Below are positions 4,702-19,418 of a DNA stretch of 64,000 nucleotides, piece after piece. The DNA is from Nonomuraea gerenzanensis (GTDB lineage Bacteria > Actinomycetota > Actinomycetes > Streptosporangiales > Streptosporangiaceae), in NCBI RefSeq assembly GCF_020215645.1, contig NZ_CP084058.1, positions 2,976,001 through 3,040,000 on the forward strand. Direction: 5' to 3'. The position numbers were made by a program, and so were the translations under genes. The notes under the pieces were generated by a model, which searched no databases, was not told the origin of the DNA, and worked only from the letters and a program-made list of their open reading frames with translations. The stretch's first letter is position 1. Every line of letters starts with the position of its first letter.

Positions 4702-6813
4702 TCAGTGGATGCGGCGGCCGTGCTCGTCGGGCACCCCCGACTTGCGCAGGAAGTAGGTGTTGACCTGGTCGCGCCACTCCTCGGCGCACCGCACCTGCTC
4801 GTCGAGCCGCTCCTTGACCCGCGTGTACAGCGCCGCGTCCACCGAGCCCGCCACCTTCTCCCAGGCCAGCCGCATCCCGGCCGCCTCCTCCGCCCCCGCG
4901 AAGTGGGTGTCGTAGATGTGCTGCACGACCGTGGTGCCGCTCTGCAGGACGTGCTCGTACGGCACGTGGTGGAAGAACAGCAGCAATTCGTCGGGGCACT
5001 CGGCGAGCGACTCGTACACCTCCGACCACGGCGCCGGGTACTGGCCGGTGTAGCCGGTGCCGGTGGCGCGGGTGCGGTCGACGCCGACGCCGTCACGGTC
5101 GGCGAAGTGGTAGGTGCCCCACGGCGTGTACTCGTATCCGTCCACGTCGGGGCCGTAGTGGTGGCCGGGGCGGACCATGAAGCCGACGCCGAGCGGCGCG
5201 GTGTAGCGCTCGTAGGTCTCCCAGGAGCCGTCCATCATCTCGTGCAGCGTGCCGCGCACCGCGTCGGGCGCGCCGGGGAAGGTCAGGCCGATCCACTCGT
5301 CCAGGATCGCCGCCGGGCCGAGCTCCGGCGCCCAGGCGAGCCGGCCGAACGCGTACAGGTTGGCCTGGGCCAGCGGGTGACCCGTCCAGTACGGGTCGTC
5401 GCCCACGTTCGACACCGCCACCAGGCCACCCCCGGCGGCCACCTCGGCGACCGTGCGCTCGCCCGGCCCCCAGAAGCGGAACCCGAGCACCTCGCTCCAC
5501 ATCGGGCCGAGGTAGCACACGTGCCGCTGCTGGCCGGTGTACTCCTGCGTCACCTGCAGCTCCACCGCGAGCCTGGTGGCCGGCATGGCCGCGATCACGG
5601 GGGAGATCGGCTCGCGCGTCTGGAAGTCCATGGGGCCGTACTTGACCTGGAGGATCGCGTTGTCCCTGAACTGACCGTCGAGCGGGGCGAAATGGTCGTG
5701 GGCGGCGCGGGCGCGGTCGGTGGAGCGGTCGCGCCAGTCCTGGCGGTGGTCGTAGACGAAGGCGCGCCAGTGCACGACGCCGCCGTGCGGGGCCAGGGCG
5801 TCGGCCAGCATGTTCGCGCCGTCGGCGTGGCTGCGCCCGTACGCGAACGGCCCGGGCTGGCCCTCCGAGTCGGCCTTGACCACGTACCCGCCGAAGTCGG
5901 GGATCGTCTCGTAGACCCGCGCGGTCGTGCCCGCCCACCACTCACGCACACCCTCGTCCAGGGGGTCGGCGGTGTCCAGGCCGCCGAGCACGATGGGGGA
6001 GGCGAAGTTCACCGACAGGTGCACGCGGATGCCGTACGGGCGCAGCTCCGCCGCGATGGCGGCGACTTCGCCGAGCCGGTCGGTCAGCAGGTGGGCCTCG
6101 GTGGCGTGCACGTTCACGTTGTTGATCGCGACCGCGTTCACGCCGGTCGCGGCGAGCAGCCGGCCGTACGCGCGTAGCCGTGTGAGGTCCTCGGTCAGCA
6201 GGCCGTCGCGCCAGAAGATCGAGCCGCCGGAGTAGCCGCGCTCGACCTGGCCCATCACCGGGTGCACGTCGATGTTGTCCCAGTGGTCCAGCATGCGCCG
6301 CCGCAACGCCGGCCGGTGCACCTGCGCCGCCGCCCCACTGACCGCCGCCCCACTGACCGCCGCCTCCCTGACCGCCGCCTCCCCGACCGCCGTCTCTCCG
6401 GACGCGGTCTCTCCGGACGGGGCCTCCCCGAACGCCGCCTCGCCGAGCCGCACCACCTCGAACCAGCCGTACAACAGGCCCGCGGGATCGTCGGCGAGCA
6501 CCACCGTGACCCCGTCACGGCGGCCCAGCAGGAAACCCTCGGCGCCGATCTCCGGCCCCAGCAACGCCTGCGCGGCGGCGGGCAACGGGCCGGACGAGGA
6601 CAGCGCGAGCACGAGGTCGGCCGCCTCGCCGGGCGCGACCACGGCCCCGCCGTGCCGTTCACCCGCCGCGGCCACCTCGGCCCGCACGGTGGCGACCGGT
6701 CCCGCGTCGCCGGGGTCGCCGGCCAGCACCAGCACGCGGCGCGAGCCGACGGCGCGGAACGCCTCGGGAGGCAGCCAGGCCGGATGCACGTCGGGCACAT
6801 GGGGAACGATCAA
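4702..6813 (-). CDS. aguA: Glycoside hydrolase family 67, xylan alpha-glucuronidase
   Basis: Removes 4-O-methyl-glucuronic acid from xylo-oligosaccharides. Family signatures include [40 protein letters not shown] and [19 protein letters not shown]. No signal peptide, so cytoplasmic. I chose the TTG at 6813 because AAGGAG sits 7 bases upstream and homology begins there, giving 703 residues as usual for GH67; the frame extends 53 codons further back but without family sequence. A low-complexity insertion of repeated GEA/SGAAV pentapeptides (DNA about 6333-6447) lies just before the HWDN segment. Convergent with the sugar-uptake operon whose product it should process. Confidence 0.93.
6333..6447 (-). 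repeat. 15-bp imperfect tandem repeat inside the GH67 gene
   Basis: About seven degenerate units related to CTGACCGCCGCCTCC, in frame. They encode alternating GEAAV/GETAS/SGAAV pentapeptides between the N-terminal domain and the catalytic-barrel start, where GH67 proteins normally have a short linker. Confidence 0.8.
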
Positions 6814-6991
6814 CGGGGGCTCCTTAGAGTCGGCGAGCGGGCGGGGACACGGCCCGTTCACCCGCGGCTTCACCCGCGGCGGCGGATGCGCGCGCACGCA
6901 GCGGTTTCGCCCCGAATCTACCGGTTCCCACCGAGCCGCCCCGCACCGCCTCACGTGCTCGCGCCGAATCACCGCCGAGGGCCATCGGTGG

Positions 6992-7624
6992 TCAGAGCAG
7001 CCGGTCGCGGGCGTAGCCGGCGGCCTCCGTGCGGTTGCGCACGCCGATCTTGGCGAAGGCGTTGTTGATGTGCGTCTTCACGGTCGTCCCCGCGATGAAC
7101 AGCCGGGCCGCGATCTCGGCGTTGCTCAGCCCCCTCGCGATCAGCCGCAGCACCTCCACCTCCCGCACCGTCAGCCCGTCAGGGCAGTCGGTCACCGGCT
7201 CGGCGGCACCCCGGGACAGCACCTCGACCAGCCGCCTCGCCGCCGCCGGCGAGAACGTCGACTGACCCGCGGCGGCCGAGCGCAGCGCCGCCGCCAGCTC
7301 GGCCCGCCCCGCGTCCTTGGTCAGGTAGCCGCGCGCGCCCGCCAGCAGCGCCGCGTCCACGGACCGGTCGTCGTCGTACGTGGTCAGCACCACGACCGCC
7401 ACCCCGGGATACTCGCGGGCGATCCGCCGGGTCGCCTCGACGCCGTCCATGACCGGCATCCGCAGGTCCATCAGCACCACGTCCGGCCGCAGCTGCGCCA
7501 CCAGCCGCAGCGCCTCCTCGCCCTGACCGGCGTCGCCCACGACCTCGACGCCGTCCACCAGGTCCAGCAGTGCCACCAGCCCTTCGCGCATCACCTGCTG
7601 GTCGTCCACCACCAGCACCCTCAC
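6992..7624 (-). CDS. NarL/FixJ-family response regulator
   Basis: 210 residues from the GTG at 7624, which overlaps the stop of the sensor kinase gene (GTGA), so the pair is translationally coupled. A receiver domain with acidic pocket Asp7-Asp8 and phosphoacceptor Asp53 (LMDLRMP) is followed by a LuxR-type helix-turn-helix ([20 protein letters not shown], ending [10 protein letters not shown]). Phosphorylation by the adjacent kinase should drive DNA binding. An upstream in-frame ATG would add nine residues but lacks a ribosome site. Target genes unknown; the small membrane protein in the same operon may take part in sensing. Confidence 0.92.
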
Positions 7625-8733
7625 TCCGGCACCTCCGCCCGTACCTCCCATGCCTCGCCGACCGGCCCGGCGCTCAGGGTGCCGCCCGCCAGCGCCACCC
7701 GCTCCCGCATCCCGGCCAGCCCGTACGTGGGCCGCTCCGCCGGGTGTTCGCGGGCGGGTGGGAGCGCGTTGCGGACCGTCAGGCGGACGGAGTGCTCGCC
7801 GTACGACAGGCCGAGCGTGACCGGCTGGTCCGGGGCGTGCTTGGCGGCGTTGGTGAGGGCCTCGCGGGCCGTGCGCAGGAGGCAGACCTCGGCCGCCGGG
7901 GTGAGGGGCCGCCGGGTGCCGGTCGTGCCCAGCTCGGCCCGTACGGAATGGTCCCTGCGGTGCTCGGTCACCAGCAGGCCGAGCGCGTCAGGCAGCGGCG
8001 GCACGTCCTCGCGCAGCGCCGCCACCGCCGCCCGCGCCTCCACCAGCCCCTCCCTGGCCAGGCCGCGCGAGCGGCGGATGCGGGCCACCGCGCCCGCCAC
8101 GTCGCCCCGCTCGGTCAGCAGCGCCTCGGCCACGTCGAGCTGCACCCCCAGTGCCCCCAGGGAATGCGCGAGCACGTCGTGCAGCTCCCTGGCGATGCGG
8201 GCGCGCTCGTCCAGCGCCATGGCGCGGGCCCGGTCCTGGAGGGCGCGGCGGTACTGGCGGCGGTGCAGCGCGAACAGCACCGTGCAGACCATCACCGCGC
8301 CCTGCACGACGATCGAGGTCCTGGGCCGGTCGAACCAGAGCAGGCTGCCCGCCATCAGCCCCACGTCGGCCGCGGTGACCAGGCAGATGGCCGCCATGCC
8401 GGGCGTGGAGTGCGCCGAGTACAGCAGCAACATCGCGAACAGGAACACCGTGGGCGCCGCCGACTCCGACCCCGTCACGGTGGCGGCCACGGCGGACCCG
8501 AGCGCGAGCAGCGGCGTGGCGGGTGCGGGGAAGCGGCCGTCGAGCAGGACGAAGGCCAGCCAGCAGGCCATCGAGACGCCCAGCGCCGACCAGACGGGCA
8601 CCGCCCACCGATCCGGCGCGGCGACGACCAGCGACCAGGCGAGCACCACCGTCAGCAGCGCCCTGGTCAGCCGCCCGGTCTCCGGGTCGTCGGCGGCCAG
8701 CAGCCGCTTGACCCGCCCCCACACCTCGCGCAT
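7621..8733 (-). CDS. Sensor histidine kinase, HisKA_3 (NarL partner) type
   Basis: 370 residues. Four to six N-terminal transmembrane helices (residues about 25-155) form the sensor. The dimerisation domain has the H-box ARELHDVLAHSLG with His185 as phosphorylation site, and the HATPase domain has the N-box TNAAKHA and G-box YGLAGMRERVALAGG. This is the membrane-bound DesK/LiaS-like layout common in actinomycetes. It starts 3 bp after the stop of a 56-aa membrane protein and overlaps the response-regulator start, so all three form an operon. Signal unknown. Confidence 0.92.
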   Translation of the reverse strand: MREVWGRVKRLLAADDPETGRLTRALLTVVLAWSLVVAAPDRWAVPVWSALGVSMACWLAFVLLDGRFPAPATPLLALGSAVAATVTGSESAAPTVFLFAMLLLYSAHSTPGMAAICLVTAADVGLMAGSLLWFDRPRTSIVVQGAVMVCTVLFALHRRQYRRALQDRARAMALDERARIARELHDVLAHSLGALGVQLDVAEALLTERGDVAGAVARIRRSRGLAREGLVEARAAVAALREDVPPLPDALGLLVTEHRRDHSVRAELGTTGTRRPLTPAAEVCLLRTAREALTNAAKHAPDQPVTLGLSYGEHSVRLTVRNALPPAREHPAERPTYGLAGMRERVALAGGTLSAGPVGEAWEVRAEVPE

Positions 8734-8736
8734 GGG

Positions 8737-8907
8737 CTAGCGGGAGTCCCGCAGGCTGAGAATCATGTCCACCAAGATAAGGCGGAACGCGACGAACCCG
8801 ATGACCACGATCACGGCCACCACGGCGACCGCGATCAAGAACTTCCCGTTCACTTTGCCCCCGTTGGCGTCCAGCAGCCGTTGCAGCAGTTCAAGCCGTT
8901 TGTCCAT
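8737..8907 (-). CDS. Small single-span membrane protein upstream of a sensor kinase
   Basis: 56 residues: MDKRLELLQRLL, a short linker, then one transmembrane helix (FLIAVAVVAVIVVIGFVAF) and a short C-terminal tail ending LRDSR. Its stop (TAG) is 3 bases before the ATG of the histidine kinase, so it is very likely the first gene of the kinase/regulator operon. I do not recognise a family. An accessory or sensing role for the kinase is inferred only from position; a leader peptide role is the alternative. Confidence 0.7.
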   Translation of the reverse strand: MDKRLELLQRLLDANGGKVNGKFLIAVAVVAVIVVIGFVAFRLILVDMILSLRDSR

Positions 8908-9003
8908 GCCGCAGACGCTAGGCAGGGGGGCGGGTGGAGCGGCACGTCGGAAAGGTGGAGACGAGGGTGGAGCCGGCGCACCGTCCGGTGCGCCGGACCG
9001 CGC

Positions 9004-9585
9004 CTACTTGCCGTTGCCGCGCGCGGGGCCGCTGCCGCGGACCCTGCCCGGCGGCTCGCGGGTCTGCCCCGGCGGGACGCCGGCGGCGCTCGGGGCGACG
9101 GCCGGGGTGGGGGTCCGGCCGGGCCGGGCCACCTTGGTGCGCTCACCGGCCGAGGGCGGCACGGCCGGGGCGAGCTTGCCCGCCTCACGGACACCGGCCG
9201 ACGGCGGCACCGAGCCCCTCTCCTGCACCCGGCTGGGGCTGGGGCTGGGGCTGGGGCTGGGGCGCGGGGTGGCGGGCGAAGAGGTCGCGTAAGGGCGCGC
9301 GGAGGCGGTGGGCGGGCCAGAGGTGGTGGGCGGTGCCGGGGCGGCGGCCGAGCGTGGGCTGGTCGCGGCGACCGGGCGCCCGGTGCGGGGCTCCCCGGCC
9401 GGCTCCGTGGCCTGCTCCGCGCCCACCTCGGGGGCGGGCAAGGGGTCGAACGCGCGGGAGCCGCCGGGCAGGGCGATCAGGACGGCGGCGAGCACCAGGT
9501 GGACGACGCCCAGCAGCAGGGTGGAGACCCGCAGCACCAGCCCCCGGCGTCGGCGCCGCGTCTCGTCGGCGTGGTCGTTCAGCAT
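9004..9585 (-). CDS. Membrane-anchored proline/serine-rich protein, function unknown
   Basis: 193 residues from the ATG at 9585, which has AGGAA ten bases upstream; a GTG nine bases earlier is too close to that site. An Arg-rich cytosolic start (DETRRRRRG), one transmembrane helix (residues about 20-40), then an extracytoplasmic tail rich in Pro, Ala, Ser and Thr, including a (PS)n run encoded by a hexanucleotide repeat at 9232-9262. No catalytic motif is visible. The tail could span the cell wall or be glycosylated. Read leftwards toward the kinase operon, 97 bp from it. Confidence 0.65.
   Translation of the reverse strand: MLNDHADETRRRRRGLVLRVSTLLLGVVHLVLAAVLIALPGGSRAFDPLPAPEVGAEQATEPAGEPRTGRPVAATSPRSAAAPAPPTTSGPPTASARPYATSSPATPRPSPSPSPSPSRVQERGSVPPSAGVREAGKLAPAVPPSAGERTKVARPGRTPTPAVAPSAAGVPPGQTREPPGRVRGSGPARGNGK
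9232..9262. repeat. Hexanucleotide (GGGGCT)n microsatellite
   Basis: Five consecutive GGGGCT-type units encode the Pro-Ser repeat in the membrane-anchored protein on the minus strand. Such runs are prone to slippage, but a 6-bp unit keeps the frame. Confidence 0.85.
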
Positions 9586-9664
9586 TCGCGGCACGTTCCT
9601 GCCGATGCCATGCGGGGGTGTCCTTCGGGGCGGGTGGGGCGGGCGGGTCTCTTGATCTAGGCAT

Positions 9665-9691
9665 GGATGGACTTGAGGGTCAAGTCCATCC
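9665..9691. promoter_or_regulatory. Perfect 27-bp palindrome in a divergent promoter region
   Basis: Arms GGATGGACTTGA and TCAAGTCCATCC separated by GGG. It lies between the minus-strand Pro-rich gene (start 9585) and the plus-strand LacI gene (start 9816), where no gene ends. An operator or mRNA hairpin is therefore more likely than a terminator. Confidence 0.6.
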
Positions 9692-9742
9692 TACGAAGAT
9701 CACGGTCTGGCTCCGGCCCAGCGAGCGTGCTCAAATCGTTCC

Positions 9743-9770
9743 AAACCGCTCGGAGCGGCTGCGCTATGAT
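9743..9770 (+). promoter_or_regulatory. Putative promoter/operator of the LacI-type gene
   Basis: A TATGAT -10-like hexamer (9765-9770) follows a perfect CCGCTC-G-GAGCGG palindrome (9746-9758) and the 8-mer AAACCGCT (9743-9750). The same 8-mer occurs upstream of the GH67 gene (minus strand, 6907-6900). Self-regulation by the LacI protein is plausible but untested. Confidence 0.4.
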
Positions 9771-9815
9771 CACAGCGGACAACCCGCTCGCGCCGCTCAC
9801 GGGACTCGAGGAACG

Positions 9816-10832
9816 ATGTCGAGCATGAAAGAGGTCGCCCGGCTCGCCGGGGTCTCCGTCGGCACCGTGAGCAACGTGCTCAACCGGCCGGAGATGGTCG
9901 CGCCCGACACCCTGCGACGGGTGCGGGAGGCGATCGAGCGTCTCGGCTACGTGCGCAACGGCTCCGCCCGCCAGTTGCGGGCGGGGCGGAGCCGCACCAT
10001 CGGGGTGGTCGCGCTGGACTTCGGCAACCCGTTCTTCATCGACGTCCTGCGCGGCGTCGAGACCGCCGCCCAGCAGGCGGACGTCACCGTGATGGTGTTC
10101 AACAGCAACAAGGACGCCGGCCGCGAGGCGGGGCTGCTGGAGACGTTCGAGGAGCAGCGGCCCATGGGGGTGCTGATCACGCCGGTGAACGACCGCGGCG
10201 AGGAGGAGCGGCTCAGCAGGCTCGTCGCGCGCGGCATCCCCGTGGTGCGCTTCGACAGCTCGGCCAGCCACAGCGGCGGCTGCGCGGTCGCGGTGGACGA
10301 CGTGCTCGGGGGCCGGCTGGCCGGCCTGCACTTACGCGAGCGGGGGCACAGCCGCATCGCCTTCGCCGGCGGCCCGTTCACGGTCCGGCAGGTACGCGAG
10401 CGCCGCGACGGCCTGGCCGGGGTGCTCGGCCCCGACGACACGCTGACCGTGATCCCGCTGCCCGACCTCACCGTCGCCACCGGCCGCACCGCCGGCGAGC
10501 GGATCGCGGACCTGCCGCCCGGCGAGCGGCCCACGGCGGTCTTCTGCGCCAACGACCTGGTGGCGATCGGGGTGCTGCAGGAGATGACGCTGCGCGGGCT
10601 GCGGGTGCCCGCCGACCTGGCCATCATCGGCTACGACGACATCGACTTCGCCGCGGCGGCCGCGGTGCCGCTGTCGTCGATCAGGCAGCCGCGCGAGCAG
10701 CTCGGCCGCACCGCCGCCACGCTCCTGCTGGAGGAGGCCAACCGGGGCGACGAGCACGAGCACCGCCAGGTGATCTTCCAGCCCGACCTGGTGGCCCGCA
10801 CCTCCACGACGGCGCGCGTCCGGGTGAATTAG
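9816..10832 (+). CDS. LacI-family transcriptional regulator
   Basis: 338 residues. A LacI helix-turn-helix (MKEVARLAGVSVGTVSNVLN) and hinge helix (residues about 45-60) are followed by a periplasmic-binding-protein-like effector domain with the typical IGYDDIDFA segment. ATG at 9816 has GAGGAAC upstream. Contains one TTA leucine codon (10332). Sugar-responsive control of the nearby xylan genes is an inference from location and from a shared AAACCGCT element, not shown. Confidence 0.92.
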   Translation: MSSMKEVARLAGVSVGTVSNVLNRPEMVAPDTLRRVREAIERLGYVRNGSARQLRAGRSRTIGVVALDFGNPFFIDVLRGVETAAQQADVTVMVFNSNKDAGREAGLLETFEEQRPMGVLITPVNDRGEEERLSRLVARGIPVVRFDSSASHSGGCAVAVDDVLGGRLAGLHLRERGHSRIAFAGGPFTVRQVRERRDGLAGVLGPDDTLTVIPLPDLTVATGRTAGERIADLPPGERPTAVFCANDLVAIGVLQEMTLRGLRVPADLAIIGYDDIDFAAAAAVPLSSIRQPREQLGRTAATLLLEEANRGDEHEHRQVIFQPDLVARTSTTARVRVN

Positions 10833-10873
10833 TTTTTCCCGGTTATTCGTTCATCGCCCCCGGGAATAATTCG

Positions 10874-10890
10874 GTCGGCAATTCGCCGAC
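10874..10890. promoter_or_regulatory. Palindrome upstream of isochorismatase-family gene
   Basis: GTCGGC-AATTC-GCCGAC, perfect 6-bp arms, ending 16 bp before the start codon in an unusually A+T-rich leader. A second inverted pair TTATTC (10843-10848)/GAATAA (10864-10869) lies just upstream. Possible operators. Confidence 0.4.
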
Positions 10891-10906
10891 ACCTCGAAGG
10901 AGAAGC

Positions 10907-11455
10907 ATGATTGCGCTCCTTGTCATCGACGCGCAGCAGGAATACTCCCGTTCCGGGTCACTGCCCGTCGAGAGATTCGAGCAGGCGATCGGCAACATCA
11001 GACGCCTGCTGGAAACCGCGCGATCGAGTGACGTCGCCACGGTGGTGCACGTCCGCCACATCAGCAAAGTGCCCGGGGATCAGAGTTTCGACGCGGGCAG
11101 CCCGGGGATCGACTTCGTCGACGACGTCCGGCCGCTGCCGGACGAATTAGTGCTCACCAAGCACTACATCGGCTCGTTCTCCAATCCCGATCTGGACCGG
11201 TTCCTGCGCGCCCAGCAGGTCGACCAGGTGGTGATCTGTGGATTCACCTCGTTCATCTGCTGCGACACGACCGCCCGTGAGGCGGTGCAGCTCGGTTACA
11301 AAGTCTTTTACGTGGACGACGCGATCAGCGAATTCAGCCTCGGCAATATCAGCGCCCAGGACCTGCATCGCACCGTCGCCGCCGTGCAGGGCGCGGTGTT
11401 CTCGACGGTGACCACCACCGAGGACGCCGTCGCCCTGCTCGCCGGGAAGGCGTGA
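10907..11455 (+). CDS. Isochorismatase-family cysteine hydrolase
   Basis: 182 residues with a GAAGGAGA ribosome site. Catalytic triad of the family appears as Asp8 (VIDAQQ), Lys85 (LTKHYIGSF) and Cys118 in CGFTSFICCDTTAREA. The family hydrolyses vinyl ethers or amides (isochorismatase, nicotinamidase, N-carbamoyl hydrolases); the substrate cannot be told from sequence. Third positions are less G/C-biased than in neighbours and one leucine is a rare TTA codon (11147), hinting at transfer or bldA-type control. Convergent with the PixA operon, separated by a strong hairpin. Confidence 0.85.
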   Translation: MIALLVIDAQQEYSRSGSLPVERFEQAIGNIRRLLETARSSDVATVVHVRHISKVPGDQSFDAGSPGIDFVDDVRPLPDELVLTKHYIGSFSNPDLDRFLRAQQVDQVVICGFTSFICCDTTAREAVQLGYKVFYVDDAISEFSLGNISAQDLHRTVAAVQGAVFSTVTTTEDAVALLAGKA

Positions 11456-11462
11456 CCTCCTA

Positions 11463-11500
11463 CGGCGGCCGGGGAGACCTCGCTGTCCCCCCGGCCGCCG
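11463..11500. terminator. Bidirectional hairpin between convergent genes
   Basis: Perfect 12-bp stem CGGCGGCCGGGG (11463-11474) with CCCCGGCCGCCG (11489-11500), loop of 14 bases, no U-tract. Sits between the convergent isochorismatase-family gene and the last PixA gene. Confidence 0.65.
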
Positions 11501-11506
11501 CCGGTC

Positions 11507-12070
11507 TCAGACGGGGATCACCCGGATCGACGGGTGCCCCTCGGTGTTGAGGTAGAGCCGCTCCTTCTTGTGCTCCTGCTCCAGCTCGACGACCAGCCGG
11601 TAGCGGTAGGTCCCCGGCCTGAGGCTGGGCAGCACGGTGCCGGCCCAGTAGTAGTAGACGGGCGTCAGGTCGTCGCGCATGCGGTCGGGCGCGCCGTAGA
11701 TCTTCAGCTCGACGCAGACCTTCTTCTCCGCGACGTCCTCCTCGTCACCCGACTCGACGTCCAGGAAGACGATGTTGTTGATCTTCGGCATGGGCGGCCA
11801 GGTGCCGTCGCGCCGCCGCTCCATGTCGATGGGCCGGATGATCCAGTTGAGCACCTGGCCCGGCTTGCAGACCGTCTCCAGCCGCGCGGTGCCCTGACCG
11901 GAGCCGCCCACGCTGTTGTCCACCATGTACATGGCGCCGGCCAGCGACTTGTGCTCGGTGGCCTTCTCCATGTCCACGAGCGTGACGATGTTGAGCTGGA
12001 CGGAGTTGAGCTGCCCGGGGTTCTGCTTCTCGACCTTGCCCGAACTCGCCCTGGTGGCTGGCATGACCAT
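11507..12070 (-). CDS. AidA/PixA (inclusion body) family protein, paralogue 1
   Basis: 187 residues from the ATG at 12070 with AAGGAGG eight bases upstream; the longer frame back to 12316 lies inside the next gene. Family pattern: a beta strand with LNIVTLVDMEKA, then YMVDNSVGGSGQGTARLETV, PGQVLNWIIRPID, and a C-terminal strand RPGTYRYRLVVELE. PixA makes crystalline cytoplasmic inclusions in Xenorhabdus and AidA is a stress/quorum-linked relative in Ralstonia and Burkholderia; no biochemical activity is established. No signal peptide. Last gene of a six-gene operon with three paralogues, a PaaK-like enzyme and a PLP decarboxylase. Confidence 0.8.
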   Translation of the reverse strand: MVMPATRASSGKVEKQNPGQLNSVQLNIVTLVDMEKATEHKSLAGAMYMVDNSVGGSGQGTARLETVCKPGQVLNWIIRPIDMERRRDGTWPPMPKINNIVFLDVESGDEEDVAEKKVCVELKIYGAPDRMRDDLTPVYYYWAGTVLPSLRPGTYRYRLVVELEQEHKKERLYLNTEGHPSIRVIPV

Positions 12071-12084
12071 CGGCGTTGCCTCCT

Positions 12085-12513
12085 TCAGCCCACCAGCGTG
12101 GGCGACAGCGTGGTGACGATCGGCTCGGTGCGCGTCCCGACCAGGAACTTGATCCGGTACGGAACCACGTCGATGTCGTCCTTCTTGACGGTCCCGATCC
12201 AGTACGCGACGTCGGTGCCGGGGTACACCTTGCGCTCCGGCTCGATCACGGCCCTGTCGACCTCGATGGCGGCGATCCCGACGAACGCCTCGCACTCCAG
12301 CGCCAGGCAGTTCCACAGCACCCGGTCACCGGCGCGCACCCGGGTCCGCAGCTCCTCGGTGCCGAAGCCGGTGGAGCCGCCGGCCTTGTTGGTGTCGTAG
12401 AGGTACAGGTGGCCGCGCACGCTGCCGGCCGCCAACGCGCCGACCGCGTCCAGGACGGCGGTGATCGAGATCGGCGCCCTGCTGTTGTCCCGCGTCTTCG
12501 CTCTGGGTGGCAC
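12085..12513 (-). CDS. AidA/PixA (inclusion body) family protein, paralogue 2
   Basis: 142 residues, the shortest of the four. GTG start at 12513 with GGAGGAGGA upstream. Family features: ISITAVLDAVGAL, LYLYDTNKAGGSTGFGTEEL, RVLWNCLALE and AYWIGTVKKDD. The stop overlaps the ribosome site of the next gene (TGAAGGAGG), so translation is coupled. It lacks the long linkers of paralogues 3 and 4. Cytosolic; could be the minimal beta-sandwich unit of a multi-subunit assembly, which is inference. Confidence 0.78.
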   Translation of the reverse strand: MPPRAKTRDNSRAPISITAVLDAVGALAAGSVRGHLYLYDTNKAGGSTGFGTEELRTRVRAGDRVLWNCLALECEAFVGIAAIEVDRAVIEPERKVYPGTDVAYWIGTVKKDDIDVVPYRIKFLVGTRTEPIVTTLSPTLVG

Positions 12514-12537
12514 GGTTCCTCCTCCGGGGGATGGGGT

Positions 12538-13326
12538 TCAGGCGGGCGGGATGGGCAGCAGGCCCAGGCCCGACTTGGTGAAGGCGTTGCGCTTGGGCTC
12601 GGAGACGATCCTGAGCTTGGACTCGCAGGTCAGGTCCACCGGCTCCCACGTCCAGTCACCGCCCTGCAGCAGCAGCCGGTGGAGCTGGACGGCCATCGTG
12701 TACGCGTAGGTGCCCGGCCGCGTCGAGTCCACCGTGGCCGACCAGTACCAGCCGTCGGTCACCATGTCGGGGGAGCCGTACTCGGCCGGATACATGATCT
12801 TCTTGTCGACCGCCTCGCCGTAGATGTCGGTGATCACGGGAGGCGGGTAGGTGTGCGCCGCCGCGCCGTCGTAGGAGATGACGTTGCCCGTCACGTCCAG
12901 GATCTTCTGCGTGGCGGGCCCGCGCGTGCGCCGGGTGCTCCTGACGCGGGTGCCGAGCGTCTGCTGAAGGTGACTGAGCTGCGCCGCGGCGTCGCCCCCC
13001 TGATTCGCGGGCTTGTGCACCATGGCTTCCAGCTCGCTCAACGCCTCCCGGTCGGTCTGCCGCGCCCGCTCGGCCTCGTAGCCGCGCGGCACGGTCGGCG
13101 GGATCGAGCCCAGGCTGTACGGCAGCCAGTTCAGCACCTGCTCCGTCGCCTGCGAGCCGTCGCGCCAGTAGGAGCCGTGGATCGCGGTCACCAGCTCGCC
13201 GGTGCCCTGGCCCTCGGAGCCGTGCAGCTTCATGTTGTCGAACAGGTAAGCGTTCCCCTCCAGCGTCTTCATCTCCAGGGCGTTGGCGACGTCCACGAGC
13301 AGGATGATCGCGAGTTGCTGGGGCAT
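12538..13326 (-). CDS. AidA/PixA (inclusion body) family protein, paralogue 3 (expanded)
   Basis: 262 residues. The N-terminal strand AIILLVDVANALEMKTLEG and YLFDNMKLHGSEGQGTGEL are typical of the family. A central insertion (residues about 85-150) rich in charged residues and predicted helix, with an Arg-rich stretch TRVRSTRRTRGP, splits the usual beta-sandwich. Homology resumes at GWYWSATVDSTRPGTYAYTM. Located 24 bp upstream of paralogue 2 in the same operon. The insertion might mediate binding to a partner or nucleic acid, but nothing proves this. Confidence 0.75.
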   Translation of the reverse strand: MPQQLAIILLVDVANALEMKTLEGNAYLFDNMKLHGSEGQGTGELVTAIHGSYWRDGSQATEQVLNWLPYSLGSIPPTVPRGYEAERARQTDREALSELEAMVHKPANQGGDAAAQLSHLQQTLGTRVRSTRRTRGPATQKILDVTGNVISYDGAAAHTYPPPVITDIYGEAVDKKIMYPAEYGSPDMVTDGWYWSATVDSTRPGTYAYTMAVQLHRLLLQGGDWTWEPVDLTCESKLRIVSEPKRNAFTKSGLGLLPIPPA

Positions 13327-13339
13327 GGGCCTTCCTTCC

Positions 13340-13912
13340 CTAGATCCGCATCAGCGAGGGCGTCTCGACGTGCAGCACGCTGTAGGGGCCTTCGTACATC
13401 TGGAACTCCAGCCGGTAGCGGTAGGCCACCCCCGGCACCATGTAGTAGGGCACCATCCCGGCCCAGATCTCGAGGTCCAGCTTCTCGCTCTCCACGGTGG
13501 GCGCGCCGGTCACGGCGGCGGGCCCCGGCGGGAAGGCGCCCGGTCCGTGACCCGTCGCCGCCGCGTACGCGGGCTGGGCAGGCGAGGGCGCCGGCATGCC
13601 CGGGTGGGCGCCCGCGACCGGCGCCGCCCAGCCGGCCTGCGGAGCCGGGTAGGCGGGCTGTCCCGGCGGCTGCAGCCGGAGGAACTCGATGTTCCTGATC
13701 TCGACCGGCGTCTGCAGGTCCACCGCCAGCGCGGTCCACTGGACGACCTGGCCCGGCTGGACGATCGTGCACAGCTCAGGCGTCCCCTGGGCCCTGCTCG
13801 CGAACGAGCCGTCGTCGATCAGGACCAGGTTCCCGTTGAGCAGCGAGCGGTCGGACAGCGCCCCGATGACGTCCACCAGGGCGATGATGCTCACCTGCGG
13901 TTTCACGGCCAC
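13340..13912 (-). CDS. AidA/PixA (inclusion body) family protein, paralogue 4 (Pro/Ala linker)
   Basis: 190 residues. Family half 1 (SIIALVDVIGALSDRSLLNG, then RAQGTPELCTIVQPGQVVQW) and half 2 (DLEIWAGMVPYYMVPGVAYR) are separated by a roughly 55-residue disordered linker rich in Pro, Ala and Gly (residues about 82-138). First PixA gene after the PaaK-like gene, 21 bp downstream of it. The linker is unlike the insertion in paralogue 3, so each paralogue has diverged at the same loop. Confidence 0.75.
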   Translation of the reverse strand: MAVKPQVSIIALVDVIGALSDRSLLNGNLVLIDDGSFASRAQGTPELCTIVQPGQVVQWTALAVDLQTPVEIRNIEFLRLQPPGQPAYPAPQAGWAAPVAGAHPGMPAPSPAQPAYAAATGHGPGAFPPGPAAVTGAPTVESEKLDLEIWAGMVPYYMVPGVAYRYRLEFQMYEGPYSVLHVETPSLMRI

Positions 13913-13933
13913 TTCCGATCTCCCTTCTTGGTG

Positions 13934-15463
13934 TCAGCCCCGGTCGCGGACCAGCGGCACCTTGCCGACGCTCGTCCGCTCGATCTCGGGGGACGAACGC
14001 GGCACGAACCGGAGGTGGAACCGGTAGCCGGTCTTCTCGATCGAGGCGGGGTTGGCCTCCCCCTGGTTGAACAGCGACAACGAGCGGGGCAGCGCGTTGA
14101 GGAAGACGTGGTGCACGCCGTACGGGGCCAGCGCGGCCTCGGTCGCGTACGTCAGCGCCGCGACGTCGTCCACGGCGGCCAGCAGGGTGATCGTCCGTTC
14201 CTCGCGCTGGTTGACGAACTGCACCTCGTGCGCCACCTCGTCCAGGTCCACCGGCGTGATGCGCCGCAGGTCCTCGCGCACCGCCTGGTAGGCGCGCGCG
14301 GCCGAGTACTGGCTGTCGGCCAGGTGCAGCACCTCCCCGGTCCGCCCGGCGAACTCGAAGCGCTCGGCGCGCGGCCCCGGCCCGTCCAGCCGGGGGCGGC
14401 GGATCATCCGGTCCCCGAGCTTGAGCCGCAGCAGCGGCGCCTCGTGCGCGTGCAGCCGGGTGACGACCAGCTCGCCCTCCTCGTTCTCGCCGACCCAGCG
14501 GCCCTGCTCGTCCACGATCTCGACGAGGTGCAGGCCCGGCACCGCCGTCAGGCACGGCGAGGACTCCTCCAGTTGCAGGCCGACGGTCTCGGCCTGGGTG
14601 GCGGCGAAGTAGCTGAGGATGGTCAGGTTGGGGTAGAGCGCCTTCAGCTCGGCCCGCTTGCGGTGCGCCAGCACGCCGCTGCCGTACAGCGCGACCCGGA
14701 AACTCTCCCTGGCCTCGGCCTTCAGCCCCTGCCCCAGGTCGCTCAGGATCGCGATGCCGGCGCTGATCCCCATGAGCGCCTTCGGCCCCGGATAGGAGAA
14801 CATGTGCTCCAGCACCCCGGCGGTGACCGGCCCGGCGCCGATGTAGTTCACGCCGGGCACGTGCTGCAGCACGCCGCCGACCATGGTGCCGCTGCTCCAC
14901 ATCTGATAGTCGGCCAGCGTGGTGTACAGCCAGCGCGGGCCGTCGCCCGTGAGGTGCCGGTCGAGCTGGTAGGTGCCGAGGAAGCGCCCGGCCACCCGGT
15001 AGGTGTCGTGCAGCTCGCGCAGCGCGTACACGATCTCCAGCGGGGCGCCGCCGCTGGTGCCGCCGCTCGCCACGACCTCGAACCCGCCGTGGTCGAGCGG
15101 CACCACCAGCCCGGGCCGCCCCTCCATGTACAGGTCGCGCTGCACGTCCTTGTCGGCGAGCGGGACGGCCTGCCAGTCCTCGAACGTCATCGGCCCGCCC
15201 CCGTCGGGACCCCAGGCGAGCAGCCGCTCGCGCCAGGCCGGGTTGAGCCGCACGGTGTTGACGAGCTGGCGCAGGCGGCGCAGCACCAGCGCATCCTGCG
15301 TCTCGTGCGGCAGCTCGCTGTACGGCGTGCGCAGGGCCCGCTCGAACTCCCGCATCTTGCCCGCGAAGGACGGCAGCCCGCGCACCGCCTCCACGGAGGC
15401 CGGCGCCAGCTCCTCCTCGGGGATCAGCTCGGCCGCCAGCGTGCGCGGGTCCGGCGTGCTCAT
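13934..15463 (-). CDS. PaaK-like adenylate-forming enzyme (phenylacetate-CoA ligase family)
   Basis: 509 residues. The phosphate-binding loop SGGTSGGAPLEIVY, a central YGSGVLAHRKRAELKALYP, ELVVTRL and the hinge-region LRLKLGDRM followed by FAGRTGEVLHL mark an ANL-superfamily enzyme near phenylacetate-CoA ligase. It should activate a carboxylate as acyl-AMP; whether the acceptor is CoA or another amine/thiol is unknown. The ATG at 15463 overlaps the decarboxylase stop (ATGA). Its place between a decarboxylase and four PixA genes suggests it modifies or consumes a product of the first enzyme, or conjugates something to the PixA proteins; both are speculative. Confidence 0.8.
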   Translation of the reverse strand: MSTPDPRTLAAELIPEEELAPASVEAVRGLPSFAGKMREFERALRTPYSELPHETQDALVLRRLRQLVNTVRLNPAWRERLLAWGPDGGGPMTFEDWQAVPLADKDVQRDLYMEGRPGLVVPLDHGGFEVVASGGTSGGAPLEIVYALRELHDTYRVAGRFLGTYQLDRHLTGDGPRWLYTTLADYQMWSSGTMVGGVLQHVPGVNYIGAGPVTAGVLEHMFSYPGPKALMGISAGIAILSDLGQGLKAEARESFRVALYGSGVLAHRKRAELKALYPNLTILSYFAATQAETVGLQLEESSPCLTAVPGLHLVEIVDEQGRWVGENEEGELVVTRLHAHEAPLLRLKLGDRMIRRPRLDGPGPRAERFEFAGRTGEVLHLADSQYSAARAYQAVREDLRRITPVDLDEVAHEVQFVNQREERTITLLAAVDDVAALTYATEAALAPYGVHHVFLNALPRSLSLFNQGEANPASIEKTGYRFHLRFVPRSSPEIERTSVGKVPLVRDRG

Positions 15464-16959
15464 CGGCGTCCTCCCACCCGTTGCTGGTCGTCCTGCCGGC
15501 CGGACAGCTCCCGCCCGGCCGCCCTGATCTCGGCGAGCAGCATCCGGAAGTGCTCCTCGGTGATGAGGTGGTTCATCATCACGACGCGCAGCGCCGCGAC
15601 GCCGCCCACGTCCACCTTCGAGATGAAGAACGTGCCCTGGCTCTTGATGCGGTCCCTGATCGCCACCTGGAGGCGGTGCACGTCCGCGTCACGGACCCAG
15701 CCGGGGCGGTAGCGGAAGCACAGGATGTTCGACTCGGGGGTGTGCGTGGTCTCGAAGTCGGGCTCGGCCAGCAGGATGCGGTGCACGTCCCTGGTCAGCC
15801 GGCACAGGTACTCGATCTTGTGGGCGAACAGGGCCCGGCCGTACATGGCCCACAGGACCCACAACGGCATGATCATCGGGCGTTTGGTGCACTCGATGGT
15901 CTTCCCGCCGCTGTCCAGCGCGGTGTAGACGTCCGGGTCCTCGTCGAAGACGTAGCTGGCGCGCTGCCGGAAGGCGCGGCGGCTCTTGTCCTTCTCCCGG
16001 TAGAACAGCAGCGTGCACGGCGCCGGGGTGAACATCATCTTGTGCGCGTCCCAGGTCAGCGAGTCGGCCAGCTCGATGCCCCGCAGCCGGTGGCGGAGCT
16101 GATCCGACACCAGCAGGCTGGCGCCGTGCGCGCCGTCCACGTGCAGCCAGATGTCGCGCTCCCTGGCGACCGCGGCGAGCCGGTCGATCGGGTCGAACGC
16201 GCCGACCGACGTGGTGCCGGCCGAGGCCACGAGGCAGAACACGCGCAGGCCGCGCCGCTCCGCCGCGTCCAGCGTGGGGCGGACCTGGTCCATGTCGATC
16301 TGCTGCTCGCCGTTCAGCGGGAGCCGGACGATCTGGGCCTCGCCGACGCCCATCACGCCCGCCGTGCGGGAGACGCTGTAGTGCACGTCGTCCCCGACCG
16401 CGATGGCGGGCCTGGCCTGGCCCAGGTACGCCGCCCCGCCCTCGGACCAGAAGCCGGGGAACCTGTCGTTCCTGGCGGCCAGGATCGCGGTCAGGTTCGC
16501 CAGCGAGCCGCCGGACGTGGTGACCATGGTGAAGCTGTCCTGGGGCCAGCCGATGAAGCGGTTGAGCTCGTCGGCCATGATCTTCTCCACCACGTTGGGG
16601 AGCTGGCCGGCCTCGTAGAACGAGGACGGCTGGTTCACCACGGAGCTGACGAAGTCGATGACGCCGGCGAGCGGGACGGTGCTGGAGAACTGCCGGCCCA
16701 TGTAGCCGGGGGAGTGCACCTGGATGCCGGTCCTGACGTACAGGTCGATGATGGCCGCGAGCCGGTCCTCGTCGTAGCCCGCGACGTGCTCGCGTTCCGT
16801 CGTCATCAGGGCCCTGGCCGCCCGCGACAGCGCGGCGGGCTCGGTCAGTGACAGCCCTTTGACGGACAGGTCGGAGAGGTGTTTCTCGAGCTTGGCCACC
16901 GTCGTCTCGGAGCTCTCGCGGAACAGCCGGACGTCGAACGGTTTGAGCCAATGTGTCAA
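15460..16959 (-). CDS. Group II PLP-dependent decarboxylase
   Basis: 499 residues from the TTG at 16959, five bases after GGAGG. In-frame GTG (16998) and ATG (17088, also behind a GGAGG) are alternatives, but codons upstream of 16959 lose the third-position G/C bias. Aromatic/glutamate/diaminobutyrate decarboxylase fold: the ring-stacking His193 (VHYSVSRTA), Asp275 and His278 (HVDGAHGA), and Lys307 (TWDAHKMMFTP) as PLP Schiff base. Should convert an amino acid to an amine plus CO2; substrate not predictable. First gene of the PixA operon, and next to a copper amine oxidase that could oxidise the amine. Confidence 0.87.
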   Translation of the reverse strand: MTHWLKPFDVRLFRESSETTVAKLEKHLSDLSVKGLSLTEPAALSRAARALMTTEREHVAGYDEDRLAAIIDLYVRTGIQVHSPGYMGRQFSSTVPLAGVIDFVSSVVNQPSSFYEAGQLPNVVEKIMADELNRFIGWPQDSFTMVTTSGGSLANLTAILAARNDRFPGFWSEGGAAYLGQARPAIAVGDDVHYSVSRTAGVMGVGEAQIVRLPLNGEQQIDMDQVRPTLDAAERRGLRVFCLVASAGTTSVGAFDPIDRLAAVARERDIWLHVDGAHGASLLVSDQLRHRLRGIELADSLTWDAHKMMFTPAPCTLLFYREKDKSRRAFRQRASYVFDEDPDVYTALDSGGKTIECTKRPMIMPLWVLWAMYGRALFAHKIEYLCRLTRDVHRILLAEPDFETTHTPESNILCFRYRPGWVRDADVHRLQVAIRDRIKSQGTFFISKVDVGGVAALRVVMMNHLITEEHFRMLLAEIRAAGRELSGRQDDQQRVGGRR

Positions 16960-17385: not shown

Positions 17386-19299
17386 TCAGGCGCCGTGCCC
17401 GTGGTGCCCCGGGACGTCCAGGGTCGGATTGCGGTCGAAGAAACCGACGGGCTTCAGCGTGAAACCGGTGCGGTCCACCGGCATGACGGGCCAGTCCTCC
17501 GGCCGGGGCAGGTGGGTGAGCCCGAAGACGTGCCAGACGACGAGCGAGCGGCCGTCGAGGTCGCGGTCGGCGGCGGCGAAGGCGGGCAGGCCCGCACCGC
17601 CCGGGTGCTGGTTGACCAGGAAACCGGCCGGGTAACGCTCGTCCGGGTCGTAGGCGGTGACCCACAGGTGCCTGGTCGCGAACGCGGCCCGCGCCGCGAT
17701 GGAGGACCCGGGATCGGCCAGCAGCACCGGCTTGCCCTCGGGCAGCAGCGCGTAGGCGACCGGCCGGCCCATCGCGTTGTGCGAGGCCGGGTTGGTGATG
17801 TGCCAGGCGCGCTGGACGGAGGTGTCGGCCAGGCGCTGGGCCTGGCTCTCCCTCAGCAGCGGGGTGCGCCGGTAGGTGAAGGCGTTGCCGCGCTCGTTGC
17901 CCGGCCCCATCGGCAGCCTGGCCAGCTCGACCTCCTCCACCCGGTTGACCGGCCCGTCCACCGCCATGTCCAGGCGGGCGCAGAACAGGTGCTGGTGGTA
18001 GGGCGCGGCCAGCCCAGGCGCGACCTCCGTCGCGTACGCGGACTCGCCCTGCGGGTGGGCGGAGGTGAACAGCACGCCGGTCGCCTTGGCCTCGAACGCG
18101 ATGGCGCCGTCGAGGTAGAGGTACCAGTAGAAGCCGTAGTCGTAGTTGCCGACCGTGGCGAAGAACGACAGCACCAGGCGGCGCTGGCGGCGCACCTCCG
18201 CGGAGCCGGTCCACAGGTCCGTGTGCTTCCACAGGATGCCGTGGTCCTCCTCGTGCAGGCAGATCGCGTTCGGCAGGGTCCGCGCGGCGCCGTGCTCGTC
18301 GGCGATGACGGCGTCGAGGTAGGTGATCTCGCCGACGCAGTCGCAGCCCCGTTCGAGGGCGTTGGCGTACTGGCCGAGGAGGTACTCGCCGACGTCGAAG
18401 TAGTTCTGCCAGGAACGGATCGGGGAGGGGTCGGCGTAGGGCACCACCATCTCGGCGATCGAGGCCCGGTGCACGATCGGGCGCTCGCGGCCCGCGTCCC
18501 TGTCGTGGAAGGCGACCTGGTGCAGGACGAGCCCCTCGCGCACGTCGAAGCCGATCCGCAGCGACCAGTTCTCCCAGCGCAGCAGGTTGCCGTCGAGGGT
18601 GAAGCTGGGCCCCTCCGGCTGGGTGAGCTCGATGGGCCGCTGCGTGGTGCGCGCGGGCCCCGTGACGGCGGCGTCGTCGAAGTTGCCCGAGACCGACGGG
18701 ATCGGCACCGGGCCCGAGTCGATCACCTGGTCCACCGTGCGGTTCAGCACGTCCACGTAGGCGACGAGGCCGTCCACGGGGTGCGCCCAGGCGTGGTCCT
18801 TCTCGTGCTCCTGCACGAAGGCGAGCCCGCGCAGGATGCGGCGGCCCGCCTCGCCCGGATACTCCTCGGCGTACACGCCGGCGGACAGCGGGGCCACCCT
18901 GACCTTGGCGACGTCCAGCCCCCGGCTCTTGAGCGCGGCCAGCCACCGCTCGTCGGTGGCCAGCACCTCCTCCACGACGCCGAACTCCGCGTCCAGCACG
19001 GGCGGCTGGCCGTCGACCGCGGGATCCAGCGTGCGGTCGCTCTCGACGGTCCCCCGGGTGAGCGAGACGACCACGTCGCGGGGCGCCGCCCCCGCGGTGT
19101 CGAGCAGCAGGACCCGGACCTTGCGTTCGAGCCGGACGCCGGGCGAGTAGGTGAGCAGCGCGTCCTTGGGCGGCTCCGCCAGCCCGGTGTAGGCGAACCT
19201 GGTCGTGTCCTTCACCAGCCCGGCGGCGGCCAGCACGGCCCTGGTGGCCGCGATCTCGCCTGGCGTCAGCGGGTCGAGCGGGTGCGGCGTGGCGGTCAT
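17386..19299 (-). CDS. Copper-containing primary amine oxidase
   Basis: 637 residues, the family's usual length, from the ATG at 19299 with GAGGGAGAA upstream. The residue numbering closely parallels Arthrobacter phenylethylamine oxidase: catalytic base Asp302 (YFDVGEY), topaquinone precursor Tyr386 ([10 protein letters not shown]), copper ligands His435 and His437 (PYHQHLFC) and a third His near [14 protein letters not shown]. Oxidises primary amines to aldehydes with release of ammonia and H2O2. No signal peptide. A TetR gene lies 120 bp upstream on the same strand and a decarboxylase operon downstream, so a biogenic amine is the probable substrate. Confidence 0.95.
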
Positions 19300-19418
19300 G
19301 GCTTTCTCCCTCTGCGGAGGAACGTCGCCGTCAGCGAACACCACCACGACAGTGATTTCCAGGGCCGGGAAGTTCCGCAACCGATTGTCTTCCCCGCGGT
19401 CCGGTGTCAGACCCCCGG

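Follow-up and report, generated by a model that had tools for sequence, protein, structure and literature searches.

A conserved six-gene cassette joins a decarboxylase and a PaaK-like ligase to four MakC/PixA-type proteins in distant bacteria

Introduction

The Mak proteins of vibrios and the inclusion-body proteins PixA and AidA are the described proteins closest to four small proteins considered here. These are encoded, behind a pyridoxal phosphate (PLP)-dependent decarboxylase and a PaaK-like ligase, by a six-gene operon in Nonomuraea gerenzanensis; the stretch analyzed, here called the window, is 64,000 nucleotides long (contig NZ_CP084058.1, positions 2,976,001 to 3,040,000). According to PMC11484084, MakC and MakD are cytosolic, form dimers in crystals, and were predicted by the authors of that work to pair with one another; in cells, MakC also cross-links strongly to give larger complexes. 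In Jeongeupia, an AidA-type “inclusion body family protein” goes up on chitin (PMC10455584). For the two enzymes, the fungal E-64 cluster, as described in PMC12568646, contains both a PLP decarboxylase and an ANL amide bond synthetase and shows, by way of analogy, that such pairings exist.

In the literature examined, we found no reaction or ligand for the PixA, AidA, or MakC/D proteins. A first-pass annotation of the window had known of no described system of this composition, and in PubMed Central (PMC) we likewise found the combination undescribed among the matches listed (PMC9060813 and PMC8651087 among them), subscription journals lying mostly outside that collection. Here, we describe the cassette, its constancy and spread, and the workings that its parts suggest.

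Results

The six open reading frames (ORFs) occupy 11507-16959 of the minus strand and are separated by intergenic gaps of 13 to 24 bp and one 4-nt ATGA overlap. The decarboxylase gene (gene 1; 15460-16959) overlaps by those 4 nt the gene for a PaaK-like adenylate-forming ligase (gene 2; 13934-15463). Four genes for MakC/D-PixA-type subunits follow, which we named by gene order: pixA (gene 3; 13340-13912, 190 residues, after a gap of 21 bp), with a variable Pro/Ala-rich insert; pixB (gene 4; 12538-13326, 262 residues, gap of 13 bp), which carries a long insert and whose C-terminal tail is conserved; pixC (gene 5; 12085-12513, 142 residues, gap of 24 bp); and pixD (gene 6; 11507-12070, 187 residues, gap of 14 bp), whose ATG at 12070 follows the sequence AAGGAGG. 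The operon proposed in the first-pass annotation, with its single strand, gaps of at most 24 bp, and ATGA overlap, is thus borne out in full by the ORF coordinates. The TTG start at 16959, which that annotation had also chosen for the decarboxylase, is preferred because both the start and its GGAGG ribosome-binding site are conserved in a related locus (L001), where the alternative upstream in-frame GTG (16998) is shifted by one nucleotide; the decarboxylase query used in searches began at that GTG. In comparison with locus L005, the ratio of nonsynonymous to synonymous substitution rates (dN/dS) was 0.21 to 0.33 across the six genes.

We surveyed one genome per species from 84,980 species by scanning for the ligase with six exact peptide patterns taken from the window protein; because the patterns are exact and come from one protein, remote relatives, including any without pix genes, could escape this survey. 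It found 64 further loci, and in 63 of them the decarboxylase, the ligase, and pixA to pixD were all present, on the same strand and in the same order (the window and 62 loci passed an automated order test, and L013 was counted as ordered by its gene ends). At the remaining locus, L064, the contig ends inside the ligase gene and there is no pix gene. The decarboxylase of L045 is truncated by the contig end, and pixA of L002 (11540-12129 there) is divided between two overlapping reading frames (106 and 149 residues), which a frameshift or a sequencing error might explain. Median gaps between cassette genes were 6 to 48 bp. Six genes in order at so many loci exclude chance or a local oddity, and the outcome is the opposite of a pairing confined to this genome, the result by which the first-pass annotation had been prepared to be judged. 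It is near certain that the six-gene module exists as a conserved unit. That bacteria so distantly related keep one gene order suggests that they share a system which has yet to be described. Distances between genes were correlated for all 15 pairs (0.74 to 0.95, each above 999 permutations; 32 loci), a pattern that fits common inheritance as well as coupling. When the survey was reversed and the MakCD model was run on 274 genomes of the class of one carrier, G400, matches at an E value of ≤1e-5 occurred only in G400, and 14 control genomes were unmatched.

All four small proteins matched the NCBIfam model MakCD (NF049870), at 37.8 to 51 bits, with E values of 1.7e-9 for pixA, 1.7e-10 for pixB, and 8.1e-12 for pixD (the pixD query began at base 12058, four residues short of the ATG); the best window score, 51 bits, does not reach the curated cutoff of 110 bits. 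Among aligned homologues, all 34 pixA rows and all 32 pixC rows matched this model at an E value of ≤0.01. Profile matches to the MakC structure 8rqy stood at 1.1e-11 for pixA, 2.5e-8 for pixB, and 7.6e-9 for pixD. The Pfam PixA model (PF12306; curated cutoff, 21 bits) matched none of the four window proteins at an E value of ≤1 and only 4 of 32 rows of the pixC alignment (best E value, 0.039). A PF12306 scan of the window's own genome gave no match, which carries little weight since the control genomes gave none either. The predicted structure of pixC has the MakC/PixA fold, with the beta-sandwich of PixA. Kinship with PixA at the level of the fold is therefore seen in the pixC model and presumably extends to pixA, pixB, and pixD, whereas by sequence the four are closer to MakC and MakD than to Pfam PixA. 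The AidA/PixA identity that the first-pass annotation had assigned to these proteins accordingly stands for the fold of pixC and fails in the profile search. The literature on SO1698, a fold match, led nowhere.

In a tree of 255 subunit sequences (64 each of pixB, pixC, and pixD and 63 of pixA, that of L002 being left out), each group fell on one side of a branch with zero exceptions. Branch supports were 0.89 for pixA, 1.0 for pixB, 0.999 for pixC, and 0.78 for pixD; in a smaller tree of 31 loci, they were 0.87 to 0.998. The four subunits of one locus share ~27% identity (mean of 381 pairs), compared to ~54% between counterparts at different loci (mean of 8,001 pairs, close relatives included), and these values and the separate clades rule out a recent duplication. 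The pixC profile gave four matches in the window's own genome; when it was run on 19 of the 64 carrier genomes, 18 of them likewise gave four and the other one three. The matches cluster on one contig per genome, as copies in an operon would. These are probably four old, non-interchangeable subunits. Because the clades are separate, the set of copies is constant, and identity within a locus is low, four separate roles are suggested, as in a hetero-oligomer, and we infer that pixA to pixD assemble into one.

The four subunit alignments (32 to 34 rows each, of 65 loci) contain no invariant lysine or cysteine; the closest is one pixD cysteine, kept at 90% or more. Invariant acidic residues occur in pixC (E73 and E75) and pixA (D65). 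The tail of pixB is kept in most of the 33 rows of its alignment (A3), with Phe249 invariant and Asn247, Leu257, and Pro258 nearly so, and may be a docking or insertion peptide.

The identities that the first-pass annotation had given to the two enzymes and, more broadly, to the small proteins were upheld by profile and fold matches. The decarboxylase scored 189 bits against PF00282 (cutoff, 27 bits) and is a group II PLP decarboxylase with that domain and the PLP lysine, which is present in 66 of 67 aligned rows, the remaining row having a gap. Among relatives of solved structure, a bacterial PLP decarboxylase and the glutamate, acidic amino acid, and cysteine-sulfinate decarboxylases are nearest to it; alignment with known decarboxylases did not yield the name of a substrate. 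The window ligase alone had no Pfam match at an E value of ≤1, and 24 of 35 aligned homologues matched the Pfam AMP-binding model at an E value of ≤0.1 (best, 3.8e-5). Its predicted structure, in which residues 185 to 192 fall below 50 on the predicted local distance difference test (pLDDT), matches PaaK structures, and its fold neighbors include NatL2, AjiA1, ClxA, and GH3 amido synthetases. The fold and the core motifs, including the C-terminal lysine, place it in the ANL adenylate-forming superfamily. Against the PaaK equivalog model TIGR02155, it scored 16.1 bits (E value, 0.003; cutoff, 646 bits), and this weak match stops at residue 352. The gene 2 product is an adenylating enzyme of the PaaK-like type, albeit a divergent one. 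The catalytic residues checked in both enzymes were invariant wherever present, in all full copies.

Isolate genomes with the cassette belong to Actinomycetota, Pseudomonadota, Bacteroidota, and Acidobacteriota. Cyanobacteriota, Chloroflexota, and Candidatus Aminicenantes (which we take to be a phylum) are represented by one metagenome contig each; two of these contigs are shorter than 11 kb, and bins may hold foreign contigs. Metagenome bins or uncultured isolates account for 11 of the 64 loci. The cassette is rare. In a phylum-wide sample, only 1 of 396 genomes, the window's own, had a strong ligase match (854 bits); the ligase profile matched 119 of the 396 at an E value of ≤0.001, and the 118 others all scored below 45 bits, as expected of general ANL enzymes. 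Within the family, 26 of 250 genomes had a strong ligase match, own genome included. Sampling around other carriers gave, besides the center genome, such a match in 0 of 246 genomes in the class of a Chitinophagaceae carrier, 0 of 241 in the class of a cyanobacterial carrier, and 1 of 247 (the genome from which L043 comes) in the family of a Bradyrhizobium carrier.

The ligases of Rhodopseudomonas and Bradyrhizobium, members of one family, are 50% identical, compared to 63% for the Rhodopseudomonas and window ligases. In a ligase tree of 66 rows, the distribution of Pseudomonadota requires four changes, at least three of them forced by well-supported branches, although such counts are no proof of transfer. 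Horizontal transfer of the cassette as a unit would be the simplest reading of these comparisons. In a collection of 72,556 plasmid records, the ligase occurred in seven: five from Bradyrhizobium, one from Sinorhizobium, and an 11.85-Mb N. gerenzanensis record; the ligase of NZ_LT559118.1 is 100% identical to that of the window over 509 residues. Two rhizobial plasmids (L079 and L080) carry all six genes in the usual order, each best matched by its own profile, with a cysteine hydrolase annotated downstream of the cassette and transposase, recombinase, or reverse transcriptase genes in the flanks; on both, the annotation calls the ligase and the subunits hypothetical proteins. Four more plasmid records of B. 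elkanii match the ligase (ligase match only). Carriage by phages was not supported: a scan of viral contigs gave two pattern matches and no relative.

Neighboring genes were analyzed from a codon-usage gene call, raw six-frame ORFs being discarded because they include false ORFs in GC-rich DNA. An isochorismatase-like cysteine hydrolase gene (10907-11455, plus strand; PF00857, 124 bits) converges on the operon in the window, and at 14 of 65 loci, counting the window, such a gene is next to the operon. These genes fill 14 of 125 adjacent slots versus 3 of 704 other slots, counts that are uncorrected for relatedness; the hydrolases are of several sequence types, and in six proteobacterial loci the gene lies directly downstream, in the direction of the operon. 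A class I/II aminotransferase gene (PF00155) lies between the ligase gene and pixA in three loci from hosts of differing lineages (L036, L038, and L044), and an MFS transporter gene is directly upstream of the operon in two. Just upstream in the window is a copper amine oxidase gene (17386-19302, minus strand; PF01179, 511 bits), followed by terminator-like sites; the enzyme is also encoded upstream in L001, L002, and, divergently, L063 and could act on an amine product. By their families, these neighbors would suit amine or amide metabolism, though each is found in a minority of loci.

A strong hairpin at 11462-11501, between pixD and the convergent hydrolase gene, is a probable transcript end for both sides, as predicted from the fold of 11452-11515 (-45.4 kcal/mol; z, -4.5; 200 shuffles). 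A promoter scan at the locus returned 0 sites. Beyond the hydrolase gene lies a gene for a LacI-like regulator (9816-10832, plus strand; family assigned by eye), and members of the same sequence cluster occur near L001, L002, L029, L030, and L047.

Discussion

How might the six products work together? Our preferred reading, which we hold tentatively and regard as quite possible though short of probable, is that a small conjugate, perhaps an amide, is the product of the two enzymes and is bound or held in the cytoplasm by a hetero-oligomer of the four proteins. It takes up a suggestion of the first-pass annotation, in which the PixA proteins may bind, store, or carry a small molecule that the enzymes may make. 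The decarboxylase would convert an amino acid to an amine; the adenylating ligase would then activate a carboxylic acid and couple it to an amine or a similar nucleophile, as amide-forming ANL enzymes do. The MakC/PixA-fold proteins would assemble through their beta-sandwich faces, and the resulting hetero-oligomer would bind, store, or present the conjugate or scaffold the enzymes. Where present, the recurrent cysteine hydrolase might cleave or recycle the product.

Several observations weigh against this scheme. The structure predictions comprise single chains of pixC and of the ligase. In two Tenacibaculum loci (L058 and L060; ~5250-11520), two tandem decarboxylase-ligase pairs precede a single pix set; the duplicate enzymes have diverged from each other and kept the catalytic residues checked, so a 1:1 coupling of enzymes and subunits is not strict. 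The hydrolase, aminotransferase, and transporter are missing beside most loci. As for the described counterparts, MakD gave few cross-links (PMC11484084), and the E-64 decarboxylase could be dispensed with in the host used and is not conserved across all clusters (PMC12568646).

A competing account, also raised in the first-pass annotation, is that the ligase modifies the PixA-type proteins, by acyl or adenylyl transfer or by coupling the decarboxylase amine to a subunit carboxylate, and thereby controls assembly. The strict co-occurrence of ligase and pix genes, the invariant acidic residues of pixC and pixA, and the conserved tail of pixB would all suit such a role, as would the end of the PaaK-model match at residue 352, which leaves the part for the second half-reaction outside it. 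We nevertheless favor this account less and consider it rather unlikely, since the four alignments lack an invariant lysine or cysteine, the pixD cysteine coming nearest. To our knowledge, few adenylating enzymes of the ANL superfamily act on protein carboxylates. It is also improbable, in our estimation, that the locus is a small-molecule cluster whose four pix products serve as tailoring partners, catalytic or chaperone-like, and form no storage or binding assembly, an idea with which the metabolic neighbor genes agree, among them the copper amine oxidase gene of the window and of three other loci. Patchy spread and plasmid carriage would be explained if the cassette were instead a system of defense or antagonism against phages, predators, or competitors: it is rare and scattered in both the phylum and the family samples, it occurs on rhizobial plasmids, and its fold relatives MakC and MakD accompany a toxin operon (PMC11484084). 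That interpretation has little to recommend it, however, when set against the searches. No anti-phage system in PADLOC was specifically matched, the decarboxylase giving just weak cross-matches to other PLP enzymes (SspA/DndA; E values of 7e-4 and 1.6e-3) and the other five proteins none; the viral-contig scan held no relative; and Pfam and NCBIfam recognized no effector-like domain in the six proteins.

The novelty lies at the level of the system, as the folds tested are already known. Under the most ambitious extension of the conjugate-holding scheme, which we put forward as a speculation more likely to fail than to hold, the cassette would be a new cytoplasmic device: four obligate PixA-fold subunits would form one hetero-oligomeric particle carrying a conjugated amine made by two dedicated enzymes, and the whole would cross phyla intact. 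The recurrence, across distant bacteria, of the same two enzymes with four PixA/MakC-type proteins is a concrete chemical clue to the partners of such proteins, and one that is testable in soil actinomycetes.

Each part of the cassette can be set beside a known counterpart. With the group II PLP decarboxylases that act on glutamate, acidic amino acids, and cysteine sulfinate, the decarboxylase has in common the PF00282 domain, the PLP lysine, and the stacking histidine; it differs in its ECTKR motif, whose four checked positions are kept in all 67 rows, where GAD1 has QCGRH. The ligase has the ANL fold and motifs of PaaK-like ligases and GH3 amido synthetases but lies far from the PaaK equivalog (16 bits against a cutoff of 646). 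In the E-64 cluster, as here, a PLP decarboxylase goes with an ANL enzyme, there an amide-forming one, a likeness drawn from the description of the enzyme types; it also has an oxygenase and an ATP-grasp enzyme, and among the proteins named in the excerpts of PMC12568646 none is PixA-like. The PixA/AidA inclusion-body proteins (PF12306; PDB 4lzk and 4pib) have the beta-sandwich fold predicted for pixC, yet the window proteins miss their family model. Closest are MakC and MakD of the makDCBAE operon, which have sequence homology with all four subunits and the fold of pixC and, as here, are encoded by adjacent paralogues. There, two proteins stand beside toxin genes, whereas the cassette has four subunits and two metabolic enzymes; and while PMC11484084 presents MakC and MakD as a feature of the vibrio mak operon without close structural relatives, the cassette places their sequence relatives in several phyla.

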